Part shown: positions 17,247 to 63,641 of the stretch, one piece after another
Layout: each line of letters begins with the position of its first letter
How positions within the stretch are numbered: the first letter of the stretch is position 1
IMG/VR virus record: IMGVR_UViG_3300025000_002059
Location: 23,960-87,959 of that record
Source: a virus
Reading direction: 5' to 3' (one strand)
Length of the DNA: 64,000 bases
Notes under the pieces: generated by a model
Seen by the model: the letters and a program-made list of their open reading frames with translations, nothing else
Told to the model about the DNA's origin: nothing
The model's database searches: none
Program-made: the position numbers and the translations under genes

Positions 17247-17542
17247 TGCTAGTTAATGGAACTCCGGCTATTGCAGATATTAAGAGTCAGTGTTCAATTA
17301 TTCCCGGATTTGAATTTAACTACATCGCTTACAAGGGGAAAGTATTGTGGAGCACGGTATCGGCATCGCTTGATGATTATTTCATTTATCTTTATGACGG
17401 ACCAAATTATAAAAATGGGTGGGATCCATATACGGTAGCCTGCGTAGATGAACACGGTGATCTGTTTTACTACGGTCGCTGGACGAAATTAAAAAATGCA
17501 CTTGCATGGCTTGCGGATCCAAACATGCCAGAAAGGGACTAA
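17243..17542 (+). CDS. Hypothetical protein
   Basis: 99 residues: SIIPGFEFNYIAYKGKVLWS, DDYFIYLYDGPNYKNGWDPY, CVDEHGDLFYYGRWTKLKNALAWL. The start overlaps the XRE gene stop (ATGATG). No family recognised. Conserved-looking aromatic residues suggest a real small folded protein. Confidence 0.6.
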   Translation: MMLVNGTPAIADIKSQCSIIPGFEFNYIAYKGKVLWSTVSASLDDYFIYLYDGPNYKNGWDPYTVACVDEHGDLFYYGRWTKLKNALAWLADPNMPERD

Positions 17543-17547
17543 AGCAA

Positions 17548-18309
17548 TTGGAGACACTAGCGGTAATAAACCAAAAGGGCGGCGTAGCCAAAACTACAAC
17601 GAGCGTGAATATGGCGGCCATAATAGCCGCCATGGGATTCAAGACATTACTTATTGATGTGGATCCGCAAGCTAATCTTTCCCAATCCTTGGGCATTGTT
17701 GCCTTTGATATGGGAACACCTAATCTTTTCGAGGATCCGAAAATAACACTTAGCAAGTGCGTTAATGAAACAAGCATAACGAAATTATCCATTATTCCAT
17801 CGGACCTATCACTAGCACAAGTTGAATGGGAACTTTTGAAAACATTTAAAGGCACCAATACTTCTATTCTGCGAGACAAGATCAAGGCAAGTGAGGAAGA
17901 ATTTGATTATTGCATTATCGACTGCCCGCCAAGCTTAGGAATTTTCAGCCTTAATGCGCTCATTGCAGCGGACCGTGTGCTTATCCCGGTTGGTCTTGAT
18001 CCGTTCGGATTGATTGGAATAAAGTATCTAGTGAGCACGATCACTGATATCAGAATGAGTATAAACAAGCATCTCAAAATTCTGGGCATTGCACGGACCA
18101 TGTGGGATATGCGGCAGAGACTTGGACGAGAAATCAGCGAAAGTATGGAAAAGGATTATCCGGGAAAAGTCCTTGAGACGATTATAAAAATGAATGTAAG
18201 CGTCAAGGAAAGTGCTGTTGCCCAAATGCCACTGGTCATTTATGAGCCAAATGCTCCGGCTGCGCTGCAATACATTCAATTAACGAATGAAGTGTTACAG
18301 AGATGGTGA
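17548..18309 (+). CDS. parA: ParA-type partition ATPase
   Basis: 253 residues from a TTG preceded by AAAGGG; an upstream ATG at 17506 lies inside the previous gene. LAVINQKGGVAKTTTSVNMA is the deviant Walker A with signature lysine, LLIDVDPQANLS is Walker A', and YCIIDCPPSLGIFSLNAL is Walker B. These ATPases position DNA by forming ATP-dependent gradients on the nucleoid, driven by a centromere-binding partner. The RHH gene overlapping its 3' end is the likely partner. This indicates an extrachromosomal state at some stage. Confidence 0.92.
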   Translation: METLAVINQKGGVAKTTTSVNMAAIIAAMGFKTLLIDVDPQANLSQSLGIVAFDMGTPNLFEDPKITLSKCVNETSITKLSIIPSDLSLAQVEWELLKTFKGTNTSILRDKIKASEEEFDYCIIDCPPSLGIFSLNALIAADRVLIPVGLDPFGLIGIKYLVSTITDIRMSINKHLKILGIARTMWDMRQRLGREISESMEKDYPGKVLETIIKMNVSVKESAVAQMPLVIYEPNAPAALQYIQLTNEVLQRW

Positions 18310-18590: not shown

Positions 18591-19349
18591 ATGATTGAAG
18601 AAATAGATGACCAAATATTTACCATGACAAGTGATCTCTCGGATGAAGAACTGGTCGATTTTGCAGCTGGGATATTTAAGAGCAATTGGAAAACATCATA
18701 CGATTACCAGAAAACGGATCCTATTATATTTCAAAGCTTGCCGATCGATGGGAAAATACTTAAGCATACCGATTTTTTGTCTTCGGCTGTTTATATATCA
18801 GAACTAACACAAAAGGCATTATCCTATAGATGGAATGAGATAGGAGGTCTAGCCGGGAAAGAACTGAAGGAGTGGGATGCCAATGGCGGCCTTTGTATTT
18901 ATCTATCCATTTTGCATTTTTGTTTACTGCTGGAAAGCAAAGCCGTAAAAGAGAATGAACTATGCTTAGTCCAAGGATTTTATAGGCATCCAACACACGG
19001 AATACTCAGTATATTCTCAAATCTGGGAACTCAATGCGGAGTTCATGCCTTTATAAGCGTTCAGGGAGCGGTTGTTGATTTTTCGATACAGCAAGAAGCA
19101 TCAACGTTCGAATTTGGAGAAAAAGAATTCATTATTGGCGATATCCCAGATGAGATGGAGATGGTCGGCTGGACAGAAGGAAAGCATTTAGTCAAGCAAT
19201 ATGCGCGTGAGATAGCCCGGAGCAGCGGACTTAATTATTTTGAATGGATTGAACAGCACAAAATCAATTCATATAAACTTGCAAGCAAAGAACTTAACAA
19301 AGAGCTTGTAAGGCTTAAAAGATTATATAAAAGTTTGGAGGATGAATGA
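18591..19349 (+). CDS. Hypothetical protein with possible Cys-His-Asp arrangement
   Basis: 252 residues. The central part has GGLCIYLSILHFCLLL (Cys at the start of a helix), QGFYRHPTHG, then CGVHAFISVQGAVVDFSIQQ, an order (Cys, His, Asp) seen in papain/transglutaminase-like folds. The match is only a pattern, so enzymatic activity is not claimed. The C-terminus is helical (KINSYKLASKELNKELVRLK). It is co-transcribed with partition genes. Confidence 0.55.
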   Translation: MIEEIDDQIFTMTSDLSDEELVDFAAGIFKSNWKTSYDYQKTDPIIFQSLPIDGKILKHTDFLSSAVYISELTQKALSYRWNEIGGLAGKELKEWDANGGLCIYLSILHFCLLLESKAVKENELCLVQGFYRHPTHGILSIFSNLGTQCGVHAFISVQGAVVDFSIQQEASTFEFGEKEFIIGDIPDEMEMVGWTEGKHLVKQYAREIARSSGLNYFEWIEQHKINSYKLASKELNKELVRLKRLYKSLEDE

Positions 19350-19352: not shown

Positions 19353-20408
19353 ATGGCTAGGAAAAAGAATGAAGAAGAAGTCACCCTAACCAATCAGGAA
19401 ATGATTCAAAAAGAAGAGCGCCATAGAAAAGATTTAGAAAATAAACTAAAGGCATCGGAAGCATCAGCGGAAGATCAGAAACAATTTACTCCCTTGGTCA
19501 AACTTACTAAGGATTTAAGAAGCGCAAGCCGGACATTGAATCCACAAGAAGCCCGGTATCTAGTGGACAGGTACTACCAAATCCAACAATACCGGACCAG
19601 CGCCAAGAATCAGATTAGAGCATCGGAAAGCGAAGAACCAAATGAAGTTATTGTCTGGTTTGCAGAGAACTTTGAGGAACTGGAGAAGAACATAAAAAAG
19701 GCGCTGGATGCTTATACGAGTAGTCATCCGGTCGGAGCTTGGGCCAAATCGGTGATCGGCGTAGGTCCGACATTCGCAGCCGGGCTTCTAGCGCACATTG
19801 ATGCGAAGAAAGCACCAACAGCCGGAGCCGTGTGGAGTTACGCAGGATATAATCCAAGTGTTGAATGGTTAAAAGGTCAGAAGCGTCCATGGAATGCTGA
19901 TTTAAAAAAACTATGTTATCTCATAGGTGAATCATTTGTAAAGGTTTCCAATAATCCTAAAGATATCTATGGTAAATTATATCGCCAAAGAAAAGATCAG
20001 GAGATAGCGAAGAATATAGCGGGAGAATTTGCGGAACAAGCAATATCAAAGCTGGAGAAATTCAAGATAGGTAAAGATACTGATGCTTACATATGGTATG
20101 CAGGATGTCTGACTGAAGATAAAGCCAGAGCAATTCTTCTGGGTGAAAAATCCGGATCAGCCAAAAGTCTAGCGGGAGAAAAGGATTCTGGGATTCGTAT
20201 GCTTCCACCAGCACATATCAACGAGCGGTCCAAGCGATATGCTGTTAAAATATTCCTAGCCCATTTTCATGAGGTCTTATTTGAATATGAATTTGGGACC
20301 AAGCCACCAAATCCATATGCTATCTCAATCCTGGGACATGCACATAAGCTGGAAGTTCCAAACTATGAAGTATTTAAAAAAGCGATGGAAGAAGATCCGT
20401 CACTATAG
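19353..20408 (+). CDS. Protein with IS110-type Transposase_20 (HhH) domain, no DEDD nuclease
   Basis: 351 residues. Residues ~130-195 match the C-terminal Transposase_20 domain of IS110/IS116 transposases: VIGVGPTFAAGLLAHID, GAVWSYAGYNPSVEWLKG and DLKKLCYLIGESFVKV. The N-terminus is charged helix (KEERHRKDLENKLKASEASA) instead of the RuvC-like DEDD domain, and the serine expected in a catalytic Tnp domain is not evident. The C-terminus has KRYAVKIFLAHFHEVLFEYE and PYAISILGHAHKLEVPNY, a pattern seen in phage homologues. It is probably a DNA- or RNA-binding protein. Array 1 begins about 30 bp after its stop. Confidence 0.75.
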   Translation: MARKKNEEEVTLTNQEMIQKEERHRKDLENKLKASEASAEDQKQFTPLVKLTKDLRSASRTLNPQEARYLVDRYYQIQQYRTSAKNQIRASESEEPNEVIVWFAENFEELEKNIKKALDAYTSSHPVGAWAKSVIGVGPTFAAGLLAHIDAKKAPTAGAVWSYAGYNPSVEWLKGQKRPWNADLKKLCYLIGESFVKVSNNPKDIYGKLYRQRKDQEIAKNIAGEFAEQAISKLEKFKIGKDTDAYIWYAGCLTEDKARAILLGEKSGSAKSLAGEKDSGIRMLPPAHINERSKRYAVKIFLAHFHEVLFEYEFGTKPPNPYAISILGHAHKLEVPNYEVFKKAMEEDPSL

Positions 20409-20439: not shown

Positions 20440-21148
20440 GAGCGAACCATCAGACAAGAGAGTATCAACAATAGAAGAGTGAGCCAACAAGCGTGAGCTA
20501 ATTGCATCCCATAAAAGCGAGCCACTAACCATGAATTATGCAACGAAAGAAAGCGAGCCATAGCAACAGATTACCCCATCTCGACGAGAGCGAGCCAATG
20601 GTCTATGAAAGCAGAATTGACCATCAAACAAGAGTGAACCGTGTGCAAAGATTGTATCAATTAGGAGAAGTGAGTCATTAGATTAGAATAGCACCATATC
20701 CGCAAAGCGAGCCGTTAGATCAGAAATTTATTTTATTCATTCCCATTGAGTGAGCCAAGAGCCAAGGTATACGAAAGCACCAACAACAACGAGCGAGTCA
20801 TCCGATATGAAATTAGATACAAATGCGTTGAGCGATCCAAAATGAATTGTAGCGAAACAAAGCGAACCATGGGTATGGAGAAATACCATTTATCTCCGAG
20901 TGAACCAAAAAATTAGAATAAATCGCCAAAGTAGAGTGAGCCATATGAAATAGATTAAATCACACTCTAAGAGCGAGCCAAGCTAACTTAATATAAAATG
21001 AACGAACCAGAATGCTTGATTGGGACAAAAATAACGAGTGAGCCACTAAAGGGAATTATAATATTTAATCAAAAAATGCAATGAGCGAAACAAAATATTT
21101 TGATCGAACCATTATAAAGGAGATATTCCGGGGATAACGAGTGAGTCA
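20440..21148 (+). repeat. Array 1a: 36-bp repeats with 10-bp RARYGARYCA motif
   Basis: Motif ends fall at 20449, 20486, 20524, 20560, 20597, 20641, 20677 and 20714, so spacing is 36-38 with one 44. Halfway (18 bp) lies a weaker motif, such as GAGAGTATCA ending 20467, GATTGTATCA ending 20659 and ATAGCACCA ending 20695. The intervening 8-bp segments are not conserved. All units point right. Stops occur in all frames over the stretch. About 20 units by length. Confidence 0.9.
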
Positions 21149-21151
21149 TGC

Positions 21152-21444
21152 AGGAAAGCGTGATGGGATGTTGGCTTAGAAGCAGCCATGGCTGGAAGGC
21201 TGATTGCTTTATGCAATCCATCTAAGGAGTGGGGCGATGGCTATTTGTGACTTGATTGTTTTTCCACATTATTAGCAATCTGAACCCGATGAGGGAAAAT
21301 GAATGTGGTAGTGTTACGATGATACCGATGCATTTGTAGTGACAAGGTAACATAAAAGCTGCAAATGAAGGAAAGCGTATAGCTTGGGAGTTGCTTTAGA
21401 GTTACACTTGGTTATCCCTTTTGGCGTAATAGCACACCATCACA
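21152..21444 (+). ncRNA. Structured RNA module resembling the 23S rRNA GTPase-associated centre
   Basis: From 21166, 24 bases are identical to bacterial 23S rRNA helix 43; they start GGATGTTGGCTTAGAAGCAG and end CCAT. TGGCT (21172-21176) pairs with AGCCA (21184-21188) around the TAGAAGC loop that holds A1067 in E. coli. GCGTAATAGC at 21424-21433 equals the helix 44 loop (A1095). GTGATGG (21160-21166) pairs with CCATCAC (21437-21443) to close the element. The ~230-nt insert has CCACATT/AATGTGG, GATTGC/GCAATC and CATTTGTAG/CTGCAAATG stems, and TGTTAC/GTAACA crosses the last as a pseudoknot. A second, imperfect helix 44 copy (GAAAGCGTATAGCT) is at 21371-21384. No protein is encoded. Confidence 0.7.
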
Positions 21445-22304
21445 TGAGTCATGCGGAATGATTGAACGAAATAGTGAGTGAACCATCAATAATGACCGGA
21501 ACATTGTGTCAGAGTGAGCCACGATATAAGAATAGCAACATTAATAGTTGGAGCGAACCAATCAAGCCGAAAATTAACATTCCCTATGAGTGAGTCAGGT
21601 ATATTTATGAAAAATATGAACGAGTCGAAGGAAGTAAGGGTACCAATCTCATAGAGCGAGCCATAAGGAATAATGGCAACATCACAGGAAAGCGAACCAC
21701 TAATAGCGAGTTACATCATTATACGAGAGTGAACCGTCAGAAGCGAAACTAAGTATCATATATTCAGAGTGAATCGGGATATTGGAGAGCACCACACATA
21801 CTGAGTGAATCAGGACTATGGAAAGCAGCAGATAAGCCGAGTGAGCCGAATAATGGGATAGCACCACGCTGGTTAAGCGAGCCATTGAAGGAAATAGGAT
21901 CAGAAATGCAGAGCGAGCCGCAGGATGTAAAAGCACAATAAAAAGAGAGCGAGCCAGACCAACCGAAAGCAGTATTGAGCGAGAGCGAGCCAGAGGAAAA
22001 AGATTAATTCATTGCAGGACAACGAGCCATAACTACAGATTAACGACAAGATTATAAGAGCGAACCAAAATCACGCTTAAATAAAATTGAAACATTAGCG
22101 AGTGAGTCATAGGACTTGATTGAATCACCCCATCGGAGCGATCCATATTAAGCGAGAATAACCAGCGTAGGTTGAGTGAGCCAAATGGAAGCGAGAGTAC
22201 CAATTGCATAGAGTGAGCCAGAACTGGTGATTAAAATCATTAATGCGAGAGCGAACCATGGCAAGAGAGGACCACAAATATAGAGTGATTCAAAAGCGAG
22301 GAAT
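21445..22304 (+). repeat. Array 1b: continuation of 36-bp repeats
   Basis: Same motif and orientation as array 1a, about 24 units by length (for example GAGTGAGCCA near 21515 and AAGCGAACCA near 21690). Half-unit motifs such as GATAGCACCA and GAGAGCACCA remain visible at 18 bp. It runs into the ribosome site of the embedded gene at 22310. Confidence 0.9.
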
Positions 22305-22309
22305 TATCG

Positions 22310-22594
22310 ATGAGAGATTTAATCAGTTATGATGAGATGCTAGAAAACAAGGATAAGCTAAAAACCATATTCCTCGATTTCAAGGCACGGTATTATGCTT
22401 TGGGCAAGAAGCAGAATGGAAAATTTAAAACGAGTGATCTTGACCGATTAATCCGGGAGACGATCGCAGAATTAAAAGGCAAAGAAAAACTTATTGCCGA
22501 AGGATTTCTGGAATTCGTGCTGGGATTTTTATTCAACAGCTCGTGGGATTCTACGAAGGCTTTTAATTCTGTAGATAAAATGTTTAACTGGTAG
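22310..22594 (+). CDS. Hypothetical protein embedded in array 1
   Basis: 94 residues: SYDEMLENKDKLKTIFLDFK, KTSDLDRLIRETIAELKGKE and GFLEFVLGFLFNSSW. Composition and a GCGAGGA ribosome site support a real gene; that site is also a remnant of the array motif. The array stops before it and resumes about 35 bp after it. No family recognised. Confidence 0.6.
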   Translation: MRDLISYDEMLENKDKLKTIFLDFKARYYALGKKQNGKFKTSDLDRLIRETIAELKGKEKLIAEGFLEFVLGFLFNSSWDSTKAFNSVDKMFNW

Positions 22595-22629: not shown

Positions 22630-23030
22630 ATCCAAGCGAACCATTGACTATCGCCGGAAAGCGAGCCAATTCACACGACTAAAAACAAGATACTGAAGCG
22701 AACCAGAGGAAAAGACTATTTCATTACAGGAAAGTGAGCCGGACCAATTGATAAATACATTAAATGAGAGTGAGCCACGGTTAGGGACAATTTCAATTAT
22801 TAGAAGCGAGTCAAACAGATAAGATTTCCATTTAAAGAGAGCGATCCATTTCAGATGACAGTAACAGCCTTTACGAGTGAGCCAGAAAATAGGATAGCAT
22901 CATTATGCGAAAGCGAGCCAAGTGCATGAAGATATAAACCATTAAACGAGATCGAACCAGTAGACAAGGAAAGTATCATGATCATAAAGTGAGCCAAACA
23001 CCATGATTAGTAACATTATGGACAAGCGGA
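22630..23030 (+). repeat. Array 1c: 36-bp repeats
   Basis: About 11 units. Well-formed examples: GAGTGAGCCA then GATAGCATCA 18 bp later then AAGCGAGCCA 18 bp later (around 22875-22920). Same orientation. Confidence 0.88.
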
Positions 23031-23057
23031 CTAATACACCCTTGGGAGGTGGAACGA

Positions 23058-23514: not shown

Positions 23515-23745
23515 AGAGATCGTGAGCGAATCAATTGATGAAAAAAGCAACATTACTCCGGAGTGAACCGATTGAAATGATGATCCATTGACCAAGAGTG
23601 AGCCAATATCTATGAGCCACCCAATTTAAAGTAGCGAGCCATCCCAAAGGATTTTTCAATTCCACGGAAGCGAGCCATTATAAGGCGATATTTCAGTCCA
23701 CGGGAGCGATCCAATTCACCAGTCTAATATTTCTTGGAGTGAAAA
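23515..23745 (+). repeat. Array 1d: 36-bp repeats
   Basis: About six units (GAGTGAACCG, GAGTGAGCCA, AAGCGAGCCA, GAGCGATCCA). Half motifs include ATATTTCAGT-type variants. It ends at the ribosome site of the next gene. Confidence 0.85.
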
Positions 23746-23752: not shown

Positions 23753-24127
23753 ATGGATAGACTGCGAAATGAGCGAAAGGCCAACGGTTTATGTGCTCAA
23801 TGTGGAACTAAACTTGATAGGATTGGGAGATATTGCAAAAAATGCAATACTTCAGGGAATATTAATAAGCACAAACGTTGCCTAAAGCTTTATGCAATCG
23901 GTTTATGTACTACTTGCGCTGAGCCATTAGACAGAGATGGTTGGTTTTGCTCAAGGTGTGCAAACAACTTAAAACTTAGGGCAAGAGTTAGAGACACAGA
24001 AAGAAGATTAAAAGGATTATGCGTTCAGTGTGGCGCTTGGGCAGATGGGTATTCCTATTGCCAACGCTGCAGGGATATGAGGATGGAGAGATATCACTCA
24101 AAGAAAAGGTCCATTCACCAAGAGTGA
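23753..24127 (+). CDS. Triple zinc-ribbon protein embedded in array 1
   Basis: 124 residues made of three tandem Cys4 units: GLCAQCGTKLDRIGRYCKKC, GLCTTCAEPLDRDGWFCSRC and GLCVQCGAWADGYSYCQRC, joined by basic linkers (NKHKRCLKL; RARVRDTERRLK). The whole protein is strongly basic, suggesting nucleic-acid binding. GGAGTGA, an array-motif derivative, serves as ribosome site. Its repeated binding units would suit a repeated target, such as the array around it (inference). Confidence 0.7.
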   Translation: MDRLRNERKANGLCAQCGTKLDRIGRYCKKCNTSGNINKHKRCLKLYAIGLCTTCAEPLDRDGWFCSRCANNLKLRARVRDTERRLKGLCVQCGAWADGYSYCQRCRDMRMERYHSKKRSIHQE

Positions 24128-24355
24128 GTGAGCCAATATTGGATTTTTACATTAGAGAAAGAGCGAATCAAACAGATATTATTTTTCAGATACCAAGAGT
24201 GAGCCAATTATGATGACAGAAACAACCCAAGAAAGCGAGTCAATGAATACGAACTTTATCAACAGATATGAAGCGAGCCATAACAATGAAGTATAACCAT
24301 CATCCAAGAGCGAGCCTAAGCAATTGATCACCCCACACTCACTGAGCGATTGAAG
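24120..24355 (+). repeat. Array 1e: last part of array 1
   Basis: About six units (GAGTGAGCCA, GAGCGAATCA, GAGTGAGCCA, AAGCGAGTCA, AAGCGAGCCA, GAGCGAGCCT), overlapping the 3' end of the triple zinc-ribbon gene. The repeats fade before the ribosome site of the next gene. Confidence 0.85.
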
Positions 24356-24367
24356 GAGTAAAATAAA

Positions 24368-33823: not shown

Positions 33824-34030
33824 ATGGCTTTGACACTTTGGTCCGGCAGAGGAACATGGGAAGGCTGGAAAATACGGAAGCAATATCAAGGCTGCAAATT
33901 TGGAGAGTCCGTCCTTGTGGATCCCGATGGAGTGCCATACAGTCCCAGCGATATACTAGCGAGCAGAAATTCTGCAAATCTTTCTGAAAAAGAGAAAATT
34001 AATAAAAGCAATAAATCGATAAAGGAATAA
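33824..34030 (+). CDS. Hypothetical protein
   Basis: 68 residues: MALTLWSGRGTWEGWKIRKQ, KFGESVLVDPDGVPYSPSDI and a basic, low-complexity tail (EKEKINKSNKSIKE) that runs into the octamer repeats. The first ~50 residues look genuine. Function unknown. Confidence 0.55.
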   Translation: MALTLWSGRGTWEGWKIRKQYQGCKFGESVLVDPDGVPYSPSDILASRNSANLSEKEKINKSNKSIKE

Positions 34031-34460
34031 ATCCATAAATCCATATAAGAATATATCGATACATCCATAAAGGAATATTTGCTGAAGATTCTATTTAATA
34101 GACAGAATGAAAGAATTGGATTTTGTTTATAAGTTTAGGATTTTATGTAAATATTCCATTTTTTAGTGATTGCGTATCGATATCCATATATCAATATATC
34201 CATATATCCATACGGAGCATAATTATCGTAAGAATCAATTCCTGATCGCGACGAGTAGCCTAACATTTTCTGTCAAATTGTCTAAGAGTGTATTCCTATC
34301 CATATATCAATACATCCATATATCAATACAAGAGGGACTTATGGACCAAATATGTAATTTAATGGATTCTTTCAAATTGTAGGCAAACAGAATATTCTCA
34401 AATCTATACATCAATAAATCCATATTTCCATAAATCAATATATCGATAAATCAATACAGA
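34014..34460 (+). repeat. AT-rich octamer repeat region (possible origin or AT-rich unwinding element)
   Basis: Four clusters (about 34014-34075, 34178-34217, 34298-34340, 34400-34460) consist of variants of ATATCCAT/AAATCAAT in an 8-bp period, for example ATCCATATATCAATACATCC. Between the clusters the sequence is AT-rich without genes. Such iterons plus the following dyads suggest an origin, unwinding region or regulator target. Confidence 0.65.
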
Positions 34461-34461
34461 C

Positions 34462-34543
34462 CATTTTCGTGAGATCACGAAAATGATAAAAATATAACCA
34501 TATAAGTTATAAACGGCAATTATAACTCATACGGTTATATTTT
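34462..34543. promoter_or_regulatory. Two consecutive large inverted repeats
   Basis: CATTTTCGTGA (34462-34472) pairs with TCACGAAAATG (34475-34485). Directly after it AAAATATAACC (34489-34499) pairs with GGTTATATTTT (34533-34543), enclosing AGTTATAA/TTATAACT. The perfect dyads end the octamer region. They could be operators, cruciforms or bidirectional terminators. Confidence 0.65.
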
Positions 34544-34570
34544 CGATTTTATGGATATTTATGGAAATTA

Positions 34571-34747: not shown

Positions 34748-34776
34748 CTATGCTATAATAATTACATAGGACAAGT
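34748..34776 (+). promoter_or_regulatory. Promoter directing transcription into array 2
   Basis: TATAAT (34754-34759) and GGACAA (34769-34774) lie 36 bp before the first array unit. The -35 is weak. The same TATAAT/GGACAA combination precedes several genes, so array 2 is probably transcribed. Confidence 0.55.
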
Positions 34777-34810
34777 ATAAGCCATGAACTGCGATTAAAT
34801 CAATTATTGT

Positions 34811-36970
34811 AAGCGAGCCAAGAATAGAGATTTTACAGAATTTTGAGCGAGTCAACTAGGTAGATTTTTTCAAATGTCCAAAGCGAACCAAAGCGCTTGA
34901 GAGCGCCAAAATTGGCAAGTGAACCATCAGTAGCAATAGTGCCAAACTATCAGAGTGAGCCAAAGTATTTGAGTTAAAATCATAAAAAGGTAAGTGAGTC
35001 ATCGAACCAGATTATAAACATTGAAGAATAGCGAACCATTTTTGATTAAGAGAGTGAGTCAAAGTTTCCGATCGTACCTAAGTAAGGGAGCGAGTCCAAA
35101 GGTTTTTCAGTGTACCAGAAAGAGGGAGCGAGTCATACCAAACAGAAAAAAGAACGAACCACGAACATAGACTTATTCATTTTACGAGAGTGAGCTAATA
35201 ATGCCGATAGCAACAAAAACAGTGAACGAGCCAAGAATACTGAGAGTACCATATTTCGAGAGCGAGCCAGTAAGATGGGTATTTCCAAAAAAGAGAAGCG
35301 AGCCAAGAACTCTGATATCCCAGACCAAGCAAGCGAGTCAAGGTTTCCGACCATACCCAAACGTAAGGGATCGAGTCAAGGTTTCCGAGTGCACCGAAAT
35401 TAGGGATCGAGACATGATAGCTGATTTAATCGTAAATAATGATCGTTTCAATCCACGCACCAGAAATGAGGTGCGACAATAAATATAAGTGAGCCAGCTG
35501 CATTGAGATTACCAATGTAGAGAAGCGAACCAACGAATGTGATTAGTTTACAATTGAAGAGTGAACCACACGATAAGATGTCACCGTATGTTTGGAGTGA
35601 GCCAAAGAATTAAAAAAACATTATATGCAAGCGAACCAAAAACCTTAGACAATATCAAACCCCAAGAGTGAGTCAAGCTTTCCGAGAGGTCCAGAACGGA
35701 TGAACGAATCATGTTTCGTGAGAGCACCAGAAACATGGAGTGAGCCAAGAACACTGAGATACCAATTGCGAGAGAGCGAGCCAATAACTACGATCGATCA
35801 CTGAAAAGAAGCGAACCAGTGTTGCTGGATTTGAGCAAAGTCTCTGAGTGAGTCATGGAGACAGGATAAGATCCAAATATGTCATGACTTTCTATTAGTC
35901 GTGTGGGATTGAAACATAGCTGCTAAACGAGCCAAAATATAGAATAGCAACATTAATAGTGGAGCGAACCATGGCGAATGATAATGACAATTTCCATTGA
36001 GTGAACCATTAGGAATGAGAGAACCAGTTAAATGAGTGAACCATGTATCGTGAAAAATTTCAAGCGTTACGAGTGAGCCAACAGAGTTAATCATTACAAT
36101 TGTTCAGAGCGAATCATTAAACTTGATTGTATCAGAGGTTAGAAGTGAATCAATGGGACGGAGAGTACCACAAACCATTAGTGAGCCATTCAATCGGAGA
36201 GCACCGTAAAGAACGAATCATAAGCGGCGAAAGAATCAGAACCTCGAAGTGAACCATGTATTGTGATATTTCATAATCTGTGAAGTGAGCCATCATTAGG
36301 GATTGTTTCAATTATTAGGAGTGAACCACTTTTTGTGAGAAACACAGCGATATAAGGGTGAGCCAAGAACACCGACAGTCAACAAAGCCACAAAGCGAAC
36401 CAATGTTGGAGAGAGCACCGTGCCATTCGAGTGAACCGATGTCGCACCATTTTTAAACAGAGCGAGCCAATGACGATGGAGAGCACCATGATCACGGAGC
36501 GAACCACCATTAGGGATAGTAACATATTTTTGGAGTGAGCCGAGGATACTGACATTTAAACCAGATGGAAAGAGTGAGCCAAAGTATCCGAATACAACAA
36601 CCTTCTAGAGCGAGTCACCCCACAAGAGCACACCCATGTCCGTTAAGCGATCCATCAAGGCATAGAGCACCATCAAGCATGAGTGAATCGACATTCGTGA
36701 GATACCCAATACTTGTGAGTGAGCCAGCATATCTGAATATTTCAATAGTCGTGAGTGAGCCACTGCCGCAAGATAATACCATGTCCATAGAGCGATCCAC
36801 TACGCAAGATAGCACCACAACTGTAGAGTGAACCATCGGGGAGAATTAATCATCGGTTAGAAGTGAGTCATTAAACTTGATAGCACCATATCCGCAAATC
36901 GAGCCAATCATGCTGAATATTTCAATGAGCCAGAGTGATCCAATTATTTAGATCGAATCAATAAATCTGA
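34811..36970 (+). repeat. Array 2: 36-bp repeats with RARYGARYCA motif
   Basis: About 60 units in one orientation. Measured motif ends 35197, 35233, 35269, 35305, 35340, 35378 and 35414 give spacings 36, 36, 36, 35, 38 and 36. A half-unit motif lies 18 bp from each (GAGAGTACCA ends 35251, midway between 35233 and 35269). The second half of each unit often reads TGAGAGNACCA or ATATTTCA. All frames contain stops; short open stretches with SEP or ARS every 12 residues are by-products of the period. Confidence 0.92.
35415..35486 (+). other. Non-repeat insert with GC hairpin inside array 2
   Basis: Here the array is interrupted: the next motif end comes 82 bp after the previous one. The insert contains CGCACC pairing with GGTGCG around an 8-nt loop (about 35456-35475). 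It may be a processing site, a small insertion or a decayed unit. Confidence 0.4.
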
Positions 36971-37130
36971 GTGACCAAAAATGAACAAAGAAGTCTTACA
37001 ATATGGCAACATATGTGATAATGTATGGATAAGCCAACGCTGCTGGCGAACTTGACTAGAGTACCAGATGCCAGCAAAACGAGTCGACAATGATGAGTGA
37101 CCAACAATAATGAGCGTAAAAATTGAACAA
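36971..37130 (+). repeat. Degenerate end of array 2
   Basis: Motif copies are weaker (GAGTGACCAA near 36970 and 37096, GAGCGTAAA near 37112). TGCTGGC (about 37042) can pair with GCCAGCA (about 37071), giving a stem around a diverged unit. Confidence 0.5.
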
Positions 37131-37136
37131 AAAAAT

Positions 37137-37253
37137 GACCTTCGCGGAGTTTGCACCTCCCGAAAGTCGTGGCTAAAGACCAAACTCTTTAGACTTGAAA
37201 TTTAAATCTAAGGACGGAACCCTTAGACTTAAGTACTTAATTTGGATTAAGTA
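37137..37253 (+). ncRNA. Four-hairpin element at the end of array 2
   Basis: Four stems follow one another. GAC-CTTCG-GGAG pairs with CTCC-CGAA-GTC around TTTGCAC (37137-37168, with bulges). CTAAAGA pairs with TCTTTAG (37173-37192). TCTAAGG pairs with CCTTAGA around ACGGAAC (37207-37227). TACTTAA pairs with TTAAGTA (37234-37253). The regular 7-bp stems and 6-7-nt loops indicate a structured RNA, probably the 3' domain of the array 2 transcript. Confidence 0.55.
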
Positions 37254-37322
37254 TAACAAAGGATACTCAACGAATCAAGGGGGACAAGGGTAGTATCATT
37301 TGTAATATTTTCAAATAAAAGT

Positions 37323-37362
37323 AAAGTCGGGTCAGTATCTTTAGCTGGCCCGGCTTTTTTTG
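37323..37362 (+). terminator. Rho-independent terminator downstream of array 2
   Basis: AAAGTCGGGTCAG pairs with CTGGCCCGGCTTT (two G-U pairs) around a 9-nt loop, followed by seven T. Together with the promoter at 34754 it would define a noncoding transcript of about 2.6 kb. Confidence 0.88.
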
Positions 37363-37475
37363 TTTCCCAAAAATTACAAGGTGAAAGAATTGGAGGGACA
37401 ATAGTTTTCTATCTATCGAGCGTCCGTCAGATTGTATATAATTTAGTTACTCACCTAAAAAATGGGGGGAGAGTC

Positions 37476-43390: not shown

Positions 43391-44758
43391 ATGAATGAGC
43401 AGCTCAAGGTCCAATATATCCCGATTGAGGAACTGAAAAATTGGGATGAAAATCCTAGAATTAACGACGAGGCAGCTGGAAAACTCACAAAACTAATCGA
43501 GGTTCATGGATTCATAAATCCGGTAATTGTCACTCCGGACATGAAAGTTAGAGCGGGACACACCAGAATAAAAGCAGCTAAATTAATGGGCATCAAAAAA
43601 GTTCCAGCCATGATCGTCGAGTTTGATTCCGAAGAGCAAGCGCAAGCATTCTCCTTGGCGGATAATAAAGCTGGGGAATGGGCAGAATGGGACTTCAAGA
43701 AATTAGTGGATATTTTACTTAGGCTTGATGTTGGCGATTTCGATATGGATATTACAGGATTCCAAATGGATGAAATAGAGGACATGGTTAATAAGTTTGG
43801 AGAACGTCCCATAAGTGAAGAAGAAGAATTCGATGCCGAAGAAGAAGTCGATAAAATAGAGTCAGCCTTCACATTACCGGGAGACATCTGGACAATTGGG
43901 AAGCACAGACTTATATGCGGCGATGCAACGAAACTATCCGATATCAAGACACTGGTCGGAAAGCAGGACATAAGCTTAGTTATTACGGATCCGCCATACA
44001 ATGTAAATTATGTGGGCAAAGTTGGATCAATTATGAATGATAATATGGGCAACGATAAGTTCTATGAATTCTTATTGGATTCTTTTAAAAACATGGAATG
44101 GGCGCTGCAAAAGGGATCGCCATTTTATATATTTCATGCCGATTCCGAAGGTTTAACATTCAGAAAAGCGCTGCAGGATTCCGGACTTATCCTTCATCAA
44201 GTTTTAGTGTGGGTAAAAAACACCTTCGTCATGGGACACAACGACTATCACTGGCAGCACGAACCAATTATTTATGGATGGAAAGAAGGAGCGGCACACC
44301 CATGGCACGGATTTAGGGACAAAGCAACCGTGATAGATGACGGAGTTATTGACATCGAAGTTATGAAAAAGGCTGAGTTATTAGATTTTGTAAAAGAAAT
44401 GATAGATAAGATTGATACGACTGTGCTCCGGGAAAATAAGCCCGGACGCAATGCCGATCACCCGACCATGAAACCACTTCCACTGATACGGAAATTGATG
44501 CTTAATTCATCACGAGTCCACCAAGCAGTTTTCGATCCATTTCTGGGGAGCGGATCAACACTCATAGCATCCGAACAATTAGAGCGGATTTGCCTTGGTT
44601 CAGAACTTGATCCAAAATACTGCGATGTGATAGTAAAGCGATATATAAAATTTAAGAGCAGGGATACGAGAGGAATAAAACTAATGAGAAATGGGAAAGG
44701 GATAGATCTGGATATAATCTTAAACAATTGGTGCAATGAGCTGGCGGCAGATGAATAA
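43391..44758 (+). CDS. ParB-like domain fused to DNA methyltransferase (DPPY type)
   Basis: 455 residues. Residues ~5-95 are a ParB/Srx-type domain (IPIEELKNWDENPRINDEAA, VRAGHTRIKAAKLMGIKKVP). Residues ~170-430 are an N6-adenine/N4-cytosine methyltransferase: ITDPPYNVNYVG (catalytic motif IV) and QAVFDPFLGSGSTLIASEQL (motif I, SAM binding), with DHPTMKPLPLIRKLM between. This fusion is common in Firmicute phages and is thought to methylate phage DNA to escape restriction. Recognition sequence unknown. It begins the packaging region. Confidence 0.93.
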   Translation: MNEQLKVQYIPIEELKNWDENPRINDEAAGKLTKLIEVHGFINPVIVTPDMKVRAGHTRIKAAKLMGIKKVPAMIVEFDSEEQAQAFSLADNKAGEWAEWDFKKLVDILLRLDVGDFDMDITGFQMDEIEDMVNKFGERPISEEEEFDAEEEVDKIESAFTLPGDIWTIGKHRLICGDATKLSDIKTLVGKQDISLVITDPPYNVNYVGKVGSIMNDNMGNDKFYEFLLDSFKNMEWALQKGSPFYIFHADSEGLTFRKALQDSGLILHQVLVWVKNTFVMGHNDYHWQHEPIIYGWKEGAAHPWHGFRDKATVIDDGVIDIEVMKKAELLDFVKEMIDKIDTTVLRENKPGRNADHPTMKPLPLIRKLMLNSSRVHQAVFDPFLGSGSTLIASEQLERICLGSELDPKYCDVIVKRYIKFKSRDTRGIKLMRNGKGIDLDIILNNWCNELAADE

Positions 44759-46941: not shown

Positions 46942-47898
46942 ATGATCGCAGATAAGACGATTTTAATCACAGGTGGTACAGGAACTTTTGGTCAAAAATA
47001 TACAGAATGGCTAATAAAACATAAGGGAGTAAAACGAATTATTATATTTTCTAGAGATGAATTAAAGCAACATGATATGAAACAAAAATTTAAAGATGAG
47101 CGAATACGTTATTTTATAGGTGATGTAAGAAATCAAAATCGATTAGAAAGGGCATTCAATGAAGTAGATATTGTAATTCATGCTGCAGCACTAAAGCAAG
47201 TCCCAGCTTGCGAGTATAATCCTTGGGAAGCAGTCCAAACAAATGTAATCGGAACACAGAATATAATCGAGGCATCTATTAATAAAAAAGTTAGTAGATG
47301 TCTTTTGCTCAGTACAGATAAAAGCTGCATGGCTTCAAACACATATGGAAAAACAAAAGCTCTAGCCGAATCTTTATTTATAAACGGCAATGCATATGCG
47401 AGCGGGACCAAGACCAGATTCAGTTGTGTTCGTTATGGAAACGTTACCGGATCGCGGGGAAGCATAATCCCTTTGATGGAAAAGCTTCGGGACAGCGGAC
47501 AGCCGATCACTATCACCGATGATCGGATGACAAGATTCTGGCTGGAACCTGAAAGGGCATGTGAAATAGTTTCGTCAGCAATTCAGATGATGTATGGCGG
47601 GGAAATATTTATACCCAAAATACCCAGTGTTCGAATTTTAGATTTGAAGCAGGCTATAGCGCCAGAGTCAGAGATTAAATTTATTGGGATCCGGGAAGGC
47701 GAAAAACTGCATGAGTCCTTAATAAGCGAGCAGGAAGCACCGATGACGATCGATGCCGGGGAGTTCTATGTTATAGAAAGCCCGCAAGATTGGTTCCAGA
47801 GAGGACGCATAAAAGGAATTCATTTTGAAAAGGAAAGATATGTAAGTAATGAAAATGAAAACTTTCTTAGCATTGAAGAAATTCAGGCTGGGATTTAG
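46942..47898 (+). CDS. pseB: UDP-GlcNAc 4,6-dehydratase (PseB/LegB-like)
   Basis: 318 residues from an ATG after AAAAGGAG (a TTG one codon before is possible). TILITGGTGTFGQKYTEWLI is the NAD(P)-binding Rossmann start, FSRDELKQHDM is typical of the PseB group, and HAAALKQVPACEYNPWEAV then LLLSTDKSCMASNTYGKTKA hold the D-K and Y-X-X-X-K catalytic residues. The enzyme makes the 4-keto-6-deoxy UDP sugar that starts nonulosonic acid (pseudaminic/legionaminic) synthesis. The usual NP(I/M)N before YG is replaced by CMASN. First gene of the sugar cargo. Confidence 0.88.
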   Translation: MIADKTILITGGTGTFGQKYTEWLIKHKGVKRIIIFSRDELKQHDMKQKFKDERIRYFIGDVRNQNRLERAFNEVDIVIHAAALKQVPACEYNPWEAVQTNVIGTQNIIEASINKKVSRCLLLSTDKSCMASNTYGKTKALAESLFINGNAYASGTKTRFSCVRYGNVTGSRGSIIPLMEKLRDSGQPITITDDRMTRFWLEPERACEIVSSAIQMMYGGEIFIPKIPSVRILDLKQAIAPESEIKFIGIREGEKLHESLISEQEAPMTIDAGEFYVIESPQDWFQRGRIKGIHFEKERYVSNENENFLSIEEIQAGI

Positions 47899-47927
47899 TC
47901 AACCGAGCTGAGAGCACCATGAGAAGC

Positions 47928-48226
47928 GAACGAACCATGGAACAAGAAAAAAGCGTTATGTAGAAGTGAGCCAAATTTAAAGAGTGTACCAATGAACATG
48001 AACGAACCAAAAGGTCGGACTGAAACAATTCAAAAGAGTGAGCTATCTTGAATGGATTGAGACATTGAATGGGAGCGAACCAAAATCATTAAAAAATCAT
48101 GTTTAGTGAGTGAGCCAAACGAATGGAGAGCACCGCATTATAAGAGCGAACCATATAGATGGAGAATCCCAAATAGCAAGAAGTGAGCCAATACTCCTGA
48201 GAGTACCACATTCCGAGAGCGAGCCA
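47928..48226 (+). repeat. Array 3: 36-bp repeats
   Basis: Nine units. Motif ends 47937, 47973, 48009, 48045, 48082, 48117, 48153, 48190 and 48226, spacings 36, 36, 36, 37, 35, 36, 37 and 36. A half motif, GAGTACCA, ends at 48208, exactly midway between the last two. Same orientation as arrays 1 and 2. It fills the gap between the dehydratase and the next ParB-methyltransferase. Confidence 0.93.
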
Positions 48227-48258
48227 TGACGATGAGATAAACATTAGAAGGTGAGCGT

Positions 48259-57476: not shown

Positions 57477-57730
57477 AAAACTTTAGATTAGGTAGATTTG
57501 AAATTCCAAGAGATGTAATGCTTGATACAACAGAAATTGCTATCGCAATCACAAATGGAATGCTTATCATTCGTGCGGAAATGATGTTCAATACTGATTC
57601 TGTAGAGTATACGGCGATATCACCCATGTTTGATGAGATAGAGAATGGAACAATACCTCCAAGCTATGAGATCATCGTGGAAAAGAAGGATGATGAAATC
57701 AAAGTCAAAGCAATAAGGAAAAGTCCATGA
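57473..57730 (+). CDS. Small hypothetical protein inside the sugar cluster
   Basis: 85 residues from the ATG after AAGGAGAAAATT: FRLGRFEIPRDVMLDTTEIA, IAITNGMLIIRAEMMFNTDS and YEIIVEKKDDEIKVKAIRK. Small beta protein. The stop overlaps the next start (ATGA). Function unknown. Confidence 0.55.
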   Translation: MKNFRLGRFEIPRDVMLDTTEIAIAITNGMLIIRAEMMFNTDSVEYTAISPMFDEIENGTIPPSYEIIVEKKDDEIKVKAIRKSP

Positions 57731-58428
57731 AGACATTAGCGATTATCCCGGCTAGAAGTGGATCAAAGAGACTGGTTCAGAAAAATATGAGAGAAATTAA
57801 TGGGCAGAGTTTACTGGCCCATGCAATTGATACTGCTATCCAAAGCGATGTGTTCTCAGAAATCGTTGTATCGAGCGATTCGAAAGATATATTGGAGAGC
57901 GTCCAACACTTTAATAAAATCGTTTACCATCTTAGGCCACCGAGTCTGAGTGGAGACACGGCTAAACTGAAGACGCTTGTCAGATATCTCATGGAACTTT
58001 ATGCAGCTGAAGAAAACAAGTTCGATATTGTCGCATTGATTATACCGACTTCACCACTTCGGAGATCCGAAGATTTGAGAACGGCAGCGGCACTCATGCG
58101 AAAGAACTATGACAAAATCAATGGAGTCATGAGTGTAGTAAACATGGATCACCCACCGCAGCATACTTTCAGAATTGATTATCAGGGATACATTCAGGCG
58201 ATGTACCCAGAATTCATGGACACGCAATCCCAATTCTTAGAGCAGACATACATACACGATGGCACAATTATCTTCGTAAAGACAGAAAGCTTTCTGAAAT
58301 ATGAAGATTTTTATATGCCAAATGTGATGCCTTATTATATCAATCCGGAAAGATCCATTGACATAAACACTGAATTTGATTTAAAAATAGCTGAATTTTT
58401 AATGGGGGGAAGGAAAAGTGGGAGATAA
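57727..58428 (+). CDS. neuA: CMP-nonulosonic acid cytidylyltransferase (NeuA/PseF/LegF-like)
   Basis: 233 residues. LAIIPARSGSKRLVQKNMRE is the CTP-binding motif, IVVSSDSKDILESV and LRPPSLSGDTA follow, then ALIIPTSPLRRSEDLRTAAA. It activates the nine-carbon acid as CMP sugar for a glycosyltransferase. A single activating enzyme for two synthases implies loose specificity or a common product. Confidence 0.92.
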   Translation: MKTLAIIPARSGSKRLVQKNMREINGQSLLAHAIDTAIQSDVFSEIVVSSDSKDILESVQHFNKIVYHLRPPSLSGDTAKLKTLVRYLMELYAAEENKFDIVALIIPTSPLRRSEDLRTAAALMRKNYDKINGVMSVVNMDHPPQHTFRIDYQGYIQAMYPEFMDTQSQFLEQTYIHDGTIIFVKTESFLKYEDFYMPNVMPYYINPERSIDINTEFDLKIAEFLMGGRKSGR

Positions 58429-58648
58429 GTGGGATCGAAAGACCGGATTCTGCTGTGCAACATGTGCATTCTATGCGCCTAAGACTTTAGAGATCGGACG
58501 ATGCCGAAGAAACGCACCAACGATGAATGGCTATCCTGTTGTTTATGCAAACCACGATTGGTGTGGGGACCACAAACTAGACACCAATCCCAGTAGGGTA
58601 AGATTTGAAGAACAGCAGAAGGAAGTTCAGCCAGAATATAATATTTGA
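58418..58648 (+). CDS. Small zinc-binding phage protein
   Basis: 76 residues from a GTG after GGGGGAAGG. FCCATCAFYAPKTLEIGRCR, RNAPTMNGYPVV and DWCGDHK form a recurrent phage pattern (C-TC-F--------GRCRR-AP and DWCG-H). Likely zinc binding. It overlaps the cytidylyltransferase end and is a phage gene lying within the sugar cargo. Confidence 0.68.
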   Translation: MGDKWDRKTGFCCATCAFYAPKTLEIGRCRRNAPTMNGYPVVYANHDWCGDHKLDTNPSRVRFEEQQKEVQPEYNI

Positions 58649-58668
58649 GTCTGGAAAGAAGTGGATAT

Positions 58669-59373
58669 ATGAGCAATATTCTAATTGTAGCTGCGCATCC
58701 AGACGACGAAATATTAGGATGCGGCGGAATGATGGCTAGGGTTACGCGTTCTGATTCTCAAAGAGTATCAGTCGGATATTTGAGTTACGGACTGACATCG
58801 CGCCAAGAATCAGAAACACTAGCCGAATTCGAGAAGGAAAAAGTTAAGGACCGATCACGAAATGCCATGGAAGCATTGACCGGAATATCAAAACAGGAAA
58901 TGAGAAAGCATCTTAAATTTGCCAATTTTCCAGACAATAAATTTGATACAGTGCCACTTCTTGACATAGTAAAGCAAATTGAGAAGTGGATACAGGAAAT
59001 AAAACCAGATATTATATTCACGCATTCGCAGAAGGATCTAAATATTGACCATTGTCTAACGCACCGAGCGGTCCTCACGGCAACACGACCAATTAAGGGA
59101 AACCACAGTGTCAAGACGATTTATTCTTTTTCAATTCCATCGAGCACAGAGTGGACATTTGGGGCATTCGGAGTATTCGCTCCAAATATCTTTGTAGACA
59201 TTACCGGAATGACAGCAGCTAAAGCTAAAGCATTAAAATGCTACGATACAGAGATTAGACAATTTCCACATCCACGATCGGAAGAATATATGCATTTCCA
59301 AGCTTTTTATATGGGTTCGATCGTTGGAATGGATGAAGCAGAAGGATATGAAATGGTTAGAGGGTTTATTTAA
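58669..59373 (+). CDS. PIG-L/LmbE family deacetylase
   Basis: 234 residues from the ATG after AAGAAGTGG. ILIVAAHPDDEILGCGGMMA is the zinc-binding AHPDDE motif, ITFTHS-type IIFTHSQKDLNIDHCLTHRA supplies the other His residues. The family removes N-acetyl groups from sugars such as GlcNAc. In a nonulosonic acid cluster it may free an amine for another acyl group. Length is normal. Confidence 0.9.
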   Translation: MSNILIVAAHPDDEILGCGGMMARVTRSDSQRVSVGYLSYGLTSRQESETLAEFEKEKVKDRSRNAMEALTGISKQEMRKHLKFANFPDNKFDTVPLLDIVKQIEKWIQEIKPDIIFTHSQKDLNIDHCLTHRAVLTATRPIKGNHSVKTIYSFSIPSSTEWTFGAFGVFAPNIFVDITGMTAAKAKALKCYDTEIRQFPHPRSEEYMHFQAFYMGSIVGMDEAEGYEMVRGFI

Positions 59374-59464
59374 AAATTTAGTGGGGGCGGTTCTAAAGGA
59401 TCCACGAATAGCTTCCGCACTAGTTGGATTCTTGAGTGACGCTAGGGGGACTGCAGCGCAATAA
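59348..59464 (+). CDS. Possible small amphipathic peptide
   Basis: 38 residues overlapping the deacetylase end: MKWLEGLFKNLVGAVLKDPR, then IASALVGFLSDARGTAAQ. GAAGG directly precedes the ATG. Composition is helix-forming and amphipathic. Reality uncertain. Confidence 0.4.
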   Translation: MKWLEGLFKNLVGAVLKDPRIASALVGFLSDARGTAAQ

Positions 59465-59515
59465 GCCGGGCAGAGATGCGCACATTAAATCTTCTCAATT
59501 TGTGGAGATGAAATT

Positions 59516-60847
59516 TTGAGAAAATTAGTAGAGAAACTTAGATTGTTGAGTAGCAGGCAGAAAGAAGAGATTATAAAGAAATTATCAGACGAAGAAATCC
59601 TTGCTCTTTATTATGATTGGGAAGGAGTGTGGTCAAGACCTAGTCAAGTTGAGCCAGCTGGAGACTGGACATACTGGTTGATTCTTGCTGGTAGGGGATG
59701 GGGAAAGACCAAAACAGCAGCAGAATGGATTAGAAAAAGGGTTTGCACATTAGAGTCAAAACACATCGCACTCGTAGCACCAAGGGCATCGGACATTAGG
59801 GACATCATGATAGAGGGACCAAGCGGAATCCTTAATGTATTTCCACCAAATCAAAGACCAAACTATGAGCCATCAAAAAGAAAGATCACATTCCATACCG
59901 GGGCAGTAGCCATAACATACTCCGGAGATGAGCCGGACCAATTGCGGGGACCAAATGTGGATACAGCATGGGTCGATGAATTAGCCAGTATCCCAAAACA
60001 AGAGCAAGTCCTAGATATGATTGCTTTCTGTTTGAGGATTGGTGTTAACCCAAGGTGTGTGATAACCACTACGCCAAGACCAACGAGAACGATCAAACGA
60101 TTAATCCGGGAAGATAATACTTGCATAACGAGAGGGTCCACCTTTGAAAACAGAGATAACTTATCGACTGTTTTTTTTAGTTCAATCATTGAACGCTATA
60201 AAAATACTAGGATTGGAAAGCAAGAATTATATGGAGAAATTCTAGATGACAATCCAAAGGCTTTATGGAAAGAGAAAATAATCGAGGAATCACGAGTTAT
60301 AAAGCATCCGGAATTAAGAAGGATTGTAATCGGAGTCGATCCAGCCGCCACAGCTAATAAAAATTCTGATGAAACAGGAATTATCGCGGTTGGAAAAGGG
60401 AATGATGGTCATTTTTATATCTTGGATGATAAGTCATTGAAGGACAGTCCAGCCGGATGGGGGAAGGCTGTCGTTTCTGTTTATTATAAATACAAGGCAG
60501 ATAGAGTCATAGGTGAAGTCAATCAAGGCGGGGATATGGTCGAATATGTGCTCAAGACCATCGATAGATATGTGAGTTTCAAAGCAATCCATGCGTCAAG
60601 GGGAAAAAAGTTAAGAGCGGAGCCAATAGCAGCACTTTATGAGCAGCATAAATGCCATCATGTAGGTACATTTCCGGACCTCGAAACTCAAATGACAAAC
60701 TGGGATCCGGAGAATGATGTAGAGTCACCTGATCGAGTCGATGCTTTGTGTTGGGCTATCTGGGAACTAATGGACGGTCCCAAGAAACTAAGCAAATACA
60801 ATCCATCTGGAATCGAGGACTTTAAACGAGAGAGTCCTCATATTTAA
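59516..60847 (+). CDS. terL: Terminase large subunit
   Basis: 443 residues from a TTG after GGAGATG. ATPase: WLILAGRGWGKTKTAAEWIR (Walker A-like), PDQLRGPNVDTAWVDELASI (Walker B region) and the coupling motif TTTPRPTRTIKRLIRED. Nuclease: RIVIGVDPAATANKNSDETG (RNase-H-like Asp) and SPDRVDALCWAIWELM. It pumps DNA into the prohead and cuts concatemers. The gene is separated from terS by about 13 kb of sugar and other cargo genes. Confidence 0.95.
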   Translation: MRKLVEKLRLLSSRQKEEIIKKLSDEEILALYYDWEGVWSRPSQVEPAGDWTYWLILAGRGWGKTKTAAEWIRKRVCTLESKHIALVAPRASDIRDIMIEGPSGILNVFPPNQRPNYEPSKRKITFHTGAVAITYSGDEPDQLRGPNVDTAWVDELASIPKQEQVLDMIAFCLRIGVNPRCVITTTPRPTRTIKRLIREDNTCITRGSTFENRDNLSTVFFSSIIERYKNTRIGKQELYGEILDDNPKALWKEKIIEESRVIKHPELRRIVIGVDPAATANKNSDETGIIAVGKGNDGHFYILDDKSLKDSPAGWGKAVVSVYYKYKADRVIGEVNQGGDMVEYVLKTIDRYVSFKAIHASRGKKLRAEPIAALYEQHKCHHVGTFPDLETQMTNWDPENDVESPDRVDALCWAIWELMDGPKKLSKYNPSGIEDFKRESPHI

Positions 60848-60891
60848 ATTTTGGGCAAAATTGAAAATGATTTACAAAAGGAGTTGAGGTA

Positions 60892-61101
60892 ATGGATAAG
60901 CTATTAGAACACTGGCAAGCCATGGCGGTTATAGTACTTGAGGAAAGACAGATAGAAAAAGAGTGTTTGCGAACCAACATTAAGATTGATGTTGTCAAGC
61001 GGATAGCCGATTCAACGTCATGGTCCTTAAGGAAATCATTTGAATTTTGCCTTCGCGAGAAGGAGGGAAATCAAAGATGGCCCTGCCAAATGATCCTTTA
61101 A
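60892..61101 (+). CDS. Small hypothetical protein between terL and portal
   Basis: 69 residues: LEHWQAMAVIVLEERQIEKE, NIKIDVVKRIADSTSWSLRK. It overlaps the portal start by 25 bp. Ribosome site AGGAGTTGAGG. Function unknown. Confidence 0.55.
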   Translation: MDKLLEHWQAMAVIVLEERQIEKECLRTNIKIDVVKRIADSTSWSLRKSFEFCLREKEGNQRWPCQMIL

Positions 61102-62402: not shown

Positions 62403-62407
62403 CGGTC

Positions 62408-63325: not shown

Positions 63326-63365
63326 AATTAAAAAACCATATTTATTTTAGGGGGGTAAAATTTTT

Positions 63366-63641
63366 ATGGGAACACAGGACCATATTCTAAAAAGAACGAT
63401 TGCTGAAGCTCATTATATCATCGAGAATCGAGCAACCATACGTGAAACGGCAGCAGCTTTCAATGTTAGTAAGAGCACCGTCCACAGAGACGTTAAAAAA
63501 TTTCTAGAGGAATTAGATCTTAATTTATATGGTAAAGTTATCCATATTATAGACATCAATCTTTCAGAGCGACATATGCGAGGTGGGGAAGCAAACAAGC
63601 AGAAGTCGATTGAGCGTCATGCAAAGGCCGTTAATCGATGA
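63366..63641 (+). CDS. spoIIID: SpoIIID-like sporulation transcription regulator
   Basis: 91 residues. IENRATIRETAAAFNVSKST then VHRDVKKFLEELDLNLYGKV is the SpoIIID helix-turn-helix, and INLSERHMRGGEANKQKSIE matches the conserved RH-RGG-AT-K region that follows in SpoIIID. In Bacillus and Clostridium, SpoIIID acts in the mother cell together with SigE and promotes SigK. Finding it in a head-gene operon is unusual. With the SigE/K-like sigma gene at 50971, it suggests interference with sporulation or use of sporulation timing. Confidence 0.88.
   Translation: MGTQDHILKRTIAEAHYIIENRATIRETAAAFNVSKSTVHRDVKKFLEELDLNLYGKVIHIIDINLSERHMRGGEANKQKSIERHAKAVNR

Follow-up and report, generated by a model that had tools for sequence, protein, structure and literature searches.

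TIGR arrays are precursors of tigRNAs, guide RNAs of 36 nucleotides (nt) with two spacers (Faure et al., Science 2025, PMC12045711). Cleavage halfway along each edge repeat releases the 36-nt product from the precursor, and tigRNAs guide dimers of Tas proteins to DNA, with spacers A and B on opposite strands (PMC12045711). Published arrays most often contain 5-15 units, carry truncated edge repeats at their start and end, are followed by a terminator and have edge pairs that are backed by covariation (PMC12045711). In the TasR structure, the edge repeat contains two pairs, one of them box C/D, and the loop repeat has a box C/D pair as well; TasA loci occasionally share an operon with a gene for a ParB homologue (PMC12045711). 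Described in 2025, TIGR-Tas poses questions as to its natural targets, the origin of its spacers and the role of nuclease-free TasA. Here we analysed a 64,000-nt window of a phage genome (IMG/VR record IMGVR_UViG_3300025000_002059, positions 23,960 to 87,959), and in particular the repeat array near 35-37 kb that we call array 2. An earlier sequence-only reading had presented it as a candidate 2.6-kb noncoding RNA far longer than GOLLD or ROOL. We conclude with high confidence that array 2 is a TIGR array and belongs to a TIGR-TasA system; one transcript of it would deliver about 60 dual-guide tigRNAs. The architecture, the covariation, the partner protein with its predicted fold, the promoter and terminator signals and the conservation were all observed.

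Each unit of 36-37 nt consists of an edge repeat (RAGYGARYCA), spacer A (N8), a loop repeat of the form GA-N6-CA (GAgagwacCA) and spacer B (N8). This is the layout that defines TIGR arrays, two alternating repeats of 8-12 nt with spacers of 8-12 nt in a unit of about 36 nt. Pooling 1363 unit pairs from related loci, we found that positions 7-4, 8-3 and 21-26 each covary as base pairs. They correspond to the pairs of the TasR structure, 8-3 and 7-4 at the edge and 21-26 in the loop. Across the whole window, position 7 of an edge repeat and position 4 of the next formed a standard pair in 99 of the 104 adjacent edge repeats (spacing 33-40), compared with a mean of 79.5 and a maximum of 89 in 10,000 permutations; the combinations were GC 55, AT 37, GT 7 and AC 1. 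For the 57 edge-repeat pairs spaced by exactly 36, the counts were GC 27, AT 23, GT 4, TT 3 and AC 0, and in the pooled phage loci they were AT 726, GC 491, GT 85 and AC 28. The retention of GT above AC at paired positions fits pairing in RNA and points to a transcript of the + strand. We noted the covariation before recognising the family, so it serves as an independent test of TIGR identity. The N8 spacers are near-random in sequence, and no complementarity between spacers was detected within the array at any offset. Folding of the array body was no better than that of shuffled sequences (z +1.5 for 35487-36300; mean z +0.5 over seven 300-nt windows), which is explained if the N8 stretches are guides. 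It also agrees with the published remark that unprocessed arrays hold no extended duplexes (PMC12045711).

Much of what the sequence-only reading had said about the transcription unit was borne out. The TATAAT it had noted (34754-34759), directly preceded by TGC to give an extended -10, and the GGACAA box are both present, and the TATAAT...GGACAAGTATA element recurs 52-125 nt 5' of where the matching array has its first unit, in this phage and in all four relatives (G004-G007). Its estimate of about 60 units was also right, with 65 edge repeats at a match of at least 8/10 and 59 at 9/10 or better, every one on the + strand (first detected at 34811-34820, last at 37095-37104). Read by eye, the array has truncated edges at both ends, AGCCA (34780-34784) at the 5' side and GAGCG (37112-37116) at the 3' side, beyond which lie the 3' hairpin domain and the terminator. 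The strong terminator was confirmed at 37323-37357, with 14 pairs followed by a T run, and is conserved in relatives. No credible gene was found in array 2, as had been claimed, since its longest open reading frame (ORF) of 93 amino acids (aa) is at the level of shuffles (mean 96 aa). The proposed four-hairpin 3' domain held in part. The fold of 37095-37365 is much stronger than that of shuffles (z -5.2), and by eye hairpin 1 is maintained by compensatory changes in two relatives, hairpin 2 has an altered form in two and hairpin 3 is missing from the two examined; the fourth hairpin is not part of the minimum-energy fold. A complete noncoding transcription unit is thus well supported, at the level of sequence, by the promoter and its conservation, the array, the terminator and the lack of a gene.

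The Tas gene lies elsewhere in the window, adjoining array 1a and 14 kb from array 2. In a phmmer search against the Protein Data Bank (PDB), its Nop-domain product matched TasR (9mty, E 1.4e-12) and TasH (E 7e-8). The AlphaFold model is all-helical (pLDDT 91), and its best 11 Foldseek matches in the PDB were all TasH or TasR chains, with VIA Z scores of 17.9-19.5 for TasH/TasR, 12.6-12.8 for IS110-type recombinases and at most 8 for unrelated helical proteins. Pfam returned no HNH or RuvC nuclease domain. We rejected an IS110 transposase, as there was no DEDD transposase match and the only Pfam hit, Transposase_20, was below the cut-off (17.6 versus 21.3). The match to TasR and TasH by sequence and predicted fold, with no nuclease detected, makes this protein TasA, the class with a solo Nop protein free of HNH and RuvC domains.

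We searched for relatives with a pattern of three successive edge repeats, which gave at least 117 stretches in IMG/VR and a further 19 in genomes of bacteria and archaea; some probably arose by chance. The TasA family (median 299 aa) was present in 74 of about 130 array loci among the matches listed, and it was encoded in 18 of the 20 whole array-bearing contigs. In most contigs with tasA, an array unit begins at most 90 nt from its stop codon. G018, which lacks tasA, carries its array at the end of the contig and has units in common with G013, in which tasA adjoins them; G012 has an array without tasA and no contig-end explanation. This phage and each of four relatives carry about 80-135 edge repeats per genome, and the number and order of units vary among relatives. 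Guide repertoires could be compared across these relatives once their hosts are known.

Compared with the described systems, the locus resembles the TasA class (FpTIGR-TasA) in its covarying edge pairs, CCA box C, truncated end repeats, terminator, solo Nop-domain protein adjoining an array and occurrence in phage. It differs from that class in its 8-nt spacers (as in SpTIGR), a box D of GAG and about 60 contiguous units instead of 5-15. It also has six array segments, two of which lie 14 and 27.5 kb from tasA, a conserved promoter for the 14-kb-distant array, embedded structured RNA and CRISPR-like repeats, and a tasA gene behind parA. SpTIGR-TasH of Salicola phage CGphi29 has the same total spacer length of 16 nt and a related protein (31% over 128 aa), but TasH has an HNH nuclease and none was detected in the phage TasA. 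IS110/IS621 with its bridge RNA shares the Nop-like RNA-binding fold and the dual-guide principle, whereas here there is no match to a catalytic transposase domain and the guides come in long arrays, not as one bridge RNA. Array 2 is a further member of the TIGR arrays, with some unusual features.

From the published TasR, TasH and TasA systems we infer how the array would be expressed and processed and how its products would bind DNA. A single transcript would start at about 34.77 kb and end at the terminator at 37.36 kb, and TasA together with a host RNase would cleave it in the middle of the edge repeats into about 60 tigRNAs of some 36 nt. The half edge repeats at either end of a tigRNA would be joined by two isolated base pairs, 7-4 and 8-3, and one box C-box D pair, 21-26, would form within the loop repeat. 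A TasA dimer would hold one tigRNA with its two 8-nt spacers exposed, spacer A pairing with one strand of the DNA target and spacer B with an adjacent stretch of the opposite strand. Most likely, the phage TasA uses the array guides in this way to find DNA sequences. Being nuclease-free, it may then bind and bend the target and block the transcription or replication of competing mobile DNA; we regard action against such DNA as the likeliest function, at a little under an even chance.

Several observations weigh against the TIGR-TasA assignment. Published arrays adjoin their tas genes, but 14 kb separate array 2 from tasA, and box D is GAG, not the UG of TasR arrays. The distance is offset by array 1, which adjoins tasA, and by the recurrence of promoter and array in four relatives. 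Judged by coordinates, G004, G005 and G007 likewise have distal arrays, some 12-14 kb downstream of tasA. The published survey covered the 5 kb around tas genes (PMC12045711), so distal arrays may have been missed. The target search gave no convincing match. We looked for spacer A, a gap of 0-2 nt and the reverse complement of spacer B, a form that we derived ourselves from the published cut rule (8-nt 3' overhangs), and used re-paired spacers as controls. In 1.2 Mb of related loci, true pairs did the same as the controls; no exact spacer-pair target was found in the own or related genomes, and there were no cross-targets among relatives. One-mismatch self-matches at gap 2 exceeded expectation in this phage (4 versus 0.4) and in the pooled count (10 versus 3.6), an excess that is too weak after counting the nine gaps tried. 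Three consecutive units (window 20860, 20898 and 20934) have one-mismatch self-matches at 52973, 49286 and 59347 with an 18-bp footprint, which is suggestive and not significant after correction. Spacer 8-mers were not enriched for matches to ribosomal RNA (rRNA), sense or antisense.

Other explanations of the array fared worse. If it were one giant structured RNA like GOLLD or ROOL, as the sequence-only reading had it, the repeats would be structural modules of a single fold, and the transcription signals, the structured 3' domain and the covariation between neighbouring repeats would all be accommodated. However, the covarying pairs operate only inside one 36-nt unit, the array folds no better than shuffles, its spacers lack mutual complementarity, relatives differ in unit number and order, and a Tas protein gene stands beside the arrays. 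Rfam gave no match over the window, the GOLLD and ROOL covariance models included, and between 33.7 and 37.5 kb only sub-threshold matches to unrelated families appeared at E up to 5. The repeats, covariation and partner protein are instead those of a TIGR array; we consider a giant fold very improbable, and that reading is to be dropped while the transcription unit stands. Direct repeats in a phage with parA and replication genes might also be iterons or centromere repeats, acting as DNA sites for a phage protein. This is the least credible of the alternatives, as neighbouring repeats covary and retain GU in preference to AC, which demands RNA pairing, the repeats are all on one strand, and promoter and terminator flank the array. 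A protein-coding tandem repeat was rejected because the spacing is out of frame and the longest ORF is at chance, and a CRISPR array because there are two 10-nt repeats with 8-nt spacers, not one near-identical repeat of 25-36 nt.

A serious rival concerns function, with the TIGR identity unchanged. The guides might serve the maintenance of the phage itself, with TasA-tigRNA binding the phage genome or the host chromosome, acting with ParA in partition or regulating phage genes. What makes it serious is the location of tasA behind parA, in the same direction and with no recognised ParB adjoining, together with the published operons of TasA and ParB; the weak excess of one-mismatch self-targets at the 18-bp footprint, to which consecutive units contribute three, also fits. 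Conversely, exact self-targets occurred in none of the 20 contigs, the pooled excess arose at one of nine gaps, and the parA-tasA order may be chance. The order is maintained in L011, L081 and L092. The 252-aa protein encoded between the two genes (window 18591-19349) is present in three relatives; as a candidate for the published ParB-like partner it had no PDB or Pfam match, and its predicted model is of low confidence (pLDDT 60). On balance we judge maintenance unlikely, and clearly less probable than action against mobile DNA.

Table 1. Features of the array system and their positions in the window
Feature	Position	Strand	Description	Evidence
parA	17506..18309	+	upstream of tasA, same direction	Pfam AAA_31, E 1.5e-50
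tasA	19353..20408	+	351-aa Nop-domain protein; stop 31 nt before array 1a	phmmer, AlphaFold, Foldseek, co-occurrence
Array 1a	20440..22310	+	51 edge repeats, directly behind tasA, interrupted by GTPase-centre-like RNA	
GTPase-centre-like structured RNA	21162..21441	+	about 280 nt, inside array 1a	H43 and H44 signature segments of 23S rRNA
Array 1b	22634..23040	+	among small ORFs	
Array 1c	23524..23745	+		
Array 1d	24122..24360	+		
Promoter, array 2 (predicted)	34751..34775	+	extended -10 TGC TATAAT 34751-34759; GGACAAG 34769-34775	sequence, recurrence in relatives
Array 2, TIGR dual-repeat array	34780..37116	+	about 60 units of 36-37 nt, truncated edge at both ends	
Solitary type I-C-like CRISPR repeat	35445..35477	-	inside array 2, antisense to array transcript	sequence
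Second CRISPR-repeat-like hairpin	35881..35915	+	inside array 2, terminates in GGGATTGAAAC	sequence
3' domain, array 2	37137..37362	+	hairpins and rho-independent terminator	fold z, conservation in G004 and G007
Array 3	47892..48235	+	about 10 units, 27.5 kb from tasA	

The arrays also contain other RNA elements. The GTPase-centre-like RNA has a 24-nt exact match to E. coli 23S rRNA 1055-1078 (H43), and at its other end it carries GCGTAATAGCnCAC as in 23S H44, with the H44 segment GCGTAATAGC. It is kept in L056 (489-773, -) and L092 (13286-13575) at 80-91% identity, and among the three phages 12 pairs show two-sided, compensatory changes. A search of further viral contigs with one exact 21-base pattern did not find it, and Rfam gave no match up to E 5. 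The edge repeat itself looks like 23S domain I (AGTGAACCA), a similarity that we put down to chance.

At its first 16 and last 7 bases, the solitary CRISPR-like repeat (35445-35477) is identical to the majority of repeats in an authentic CRISPR array. That array comes from a genome sampled from the family of Paenibacillus helianthi. The end of the second hairpin, GATTGAAACA, fits the loop-repeat pattern. The relative G006 has one CRISPR-like repeat in sense orientation. Single type I-C-like repeats in phage (35445-35477 and that of G006) resemble in sequence Racr, CRISPR-repeat mimics that inhibit Cas proteins (Camara-Wilpert et al. 2023, PMC10651486); unlike Racr, these repeats sit inside TIGR arrays, one of them antisense to the array transcript. 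They could possibly act as RNA anti-CRISPRs. Together, the embedded elements suggest that array transcripts carry more than guides. We tentatively propose, as a possibility that we rate well below even, that the transcripts are composites in which more than 100 TasA guides are joined by mimics of host RNA. The mimics would be CRISPR-repeat decoys and a copy of the 23S GTPase-associated centre with ribosomal protein L11 as its expected ligand. If true, a single set of transcripts would unite RNA-guided DNA targeting with decoys, directed at host translation factors and at CRISPR defence. In L024, a type I-C-like CRISPR-repeat look-alike lies inside the TIGR array at about 694-732 (+).

Array 2, which the sequence-only reading had correctly located, is only one of six array segments in the window, alongside 1a-1d and array 3. 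Arrays occupy most gaps among the small genes near 1c and 1d, and a zinc-ribbon protein is encoded between these two segments (23753-24127). The virus record of 87,959 bases has an exact terminal redundancy of 6,356 bases (G000 1-6356 = 81604-87959, window 57645-64000), which gives a unit genome of 81,603 bases; the genome is circular or terminally redundant. A ParB-like domain fused to a DNA methyltransferase is encoded at window 43391-44758.

Outside the phage relatives, TIGR-like arrays occur in records named Enterococcus, Paenibacillus, Spirochaetales and Candidatus Yanofskybacteria (L129, L133, L142 and L145), with a Tas homologue within the locus in L142 and L145. Several other genome matches to the pattern (for example, L134, L144 and L146) were dropped as TIGR arrays, as they showed one fixed GT pair type only.

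Further promoter-like TATAAT...GGACAA sites lie in the window at 25477 (+), upstream of an integrase-like gene (25522), and at about 6152 (-), and these sites are perhaps a common phage promoter class. Just 5' of the array 2 promoter, we found short tandem ATATCCAT/ATCAATA-like repeats (34005-34557) and a long A+T-rich inverted repeat (34476-34557).
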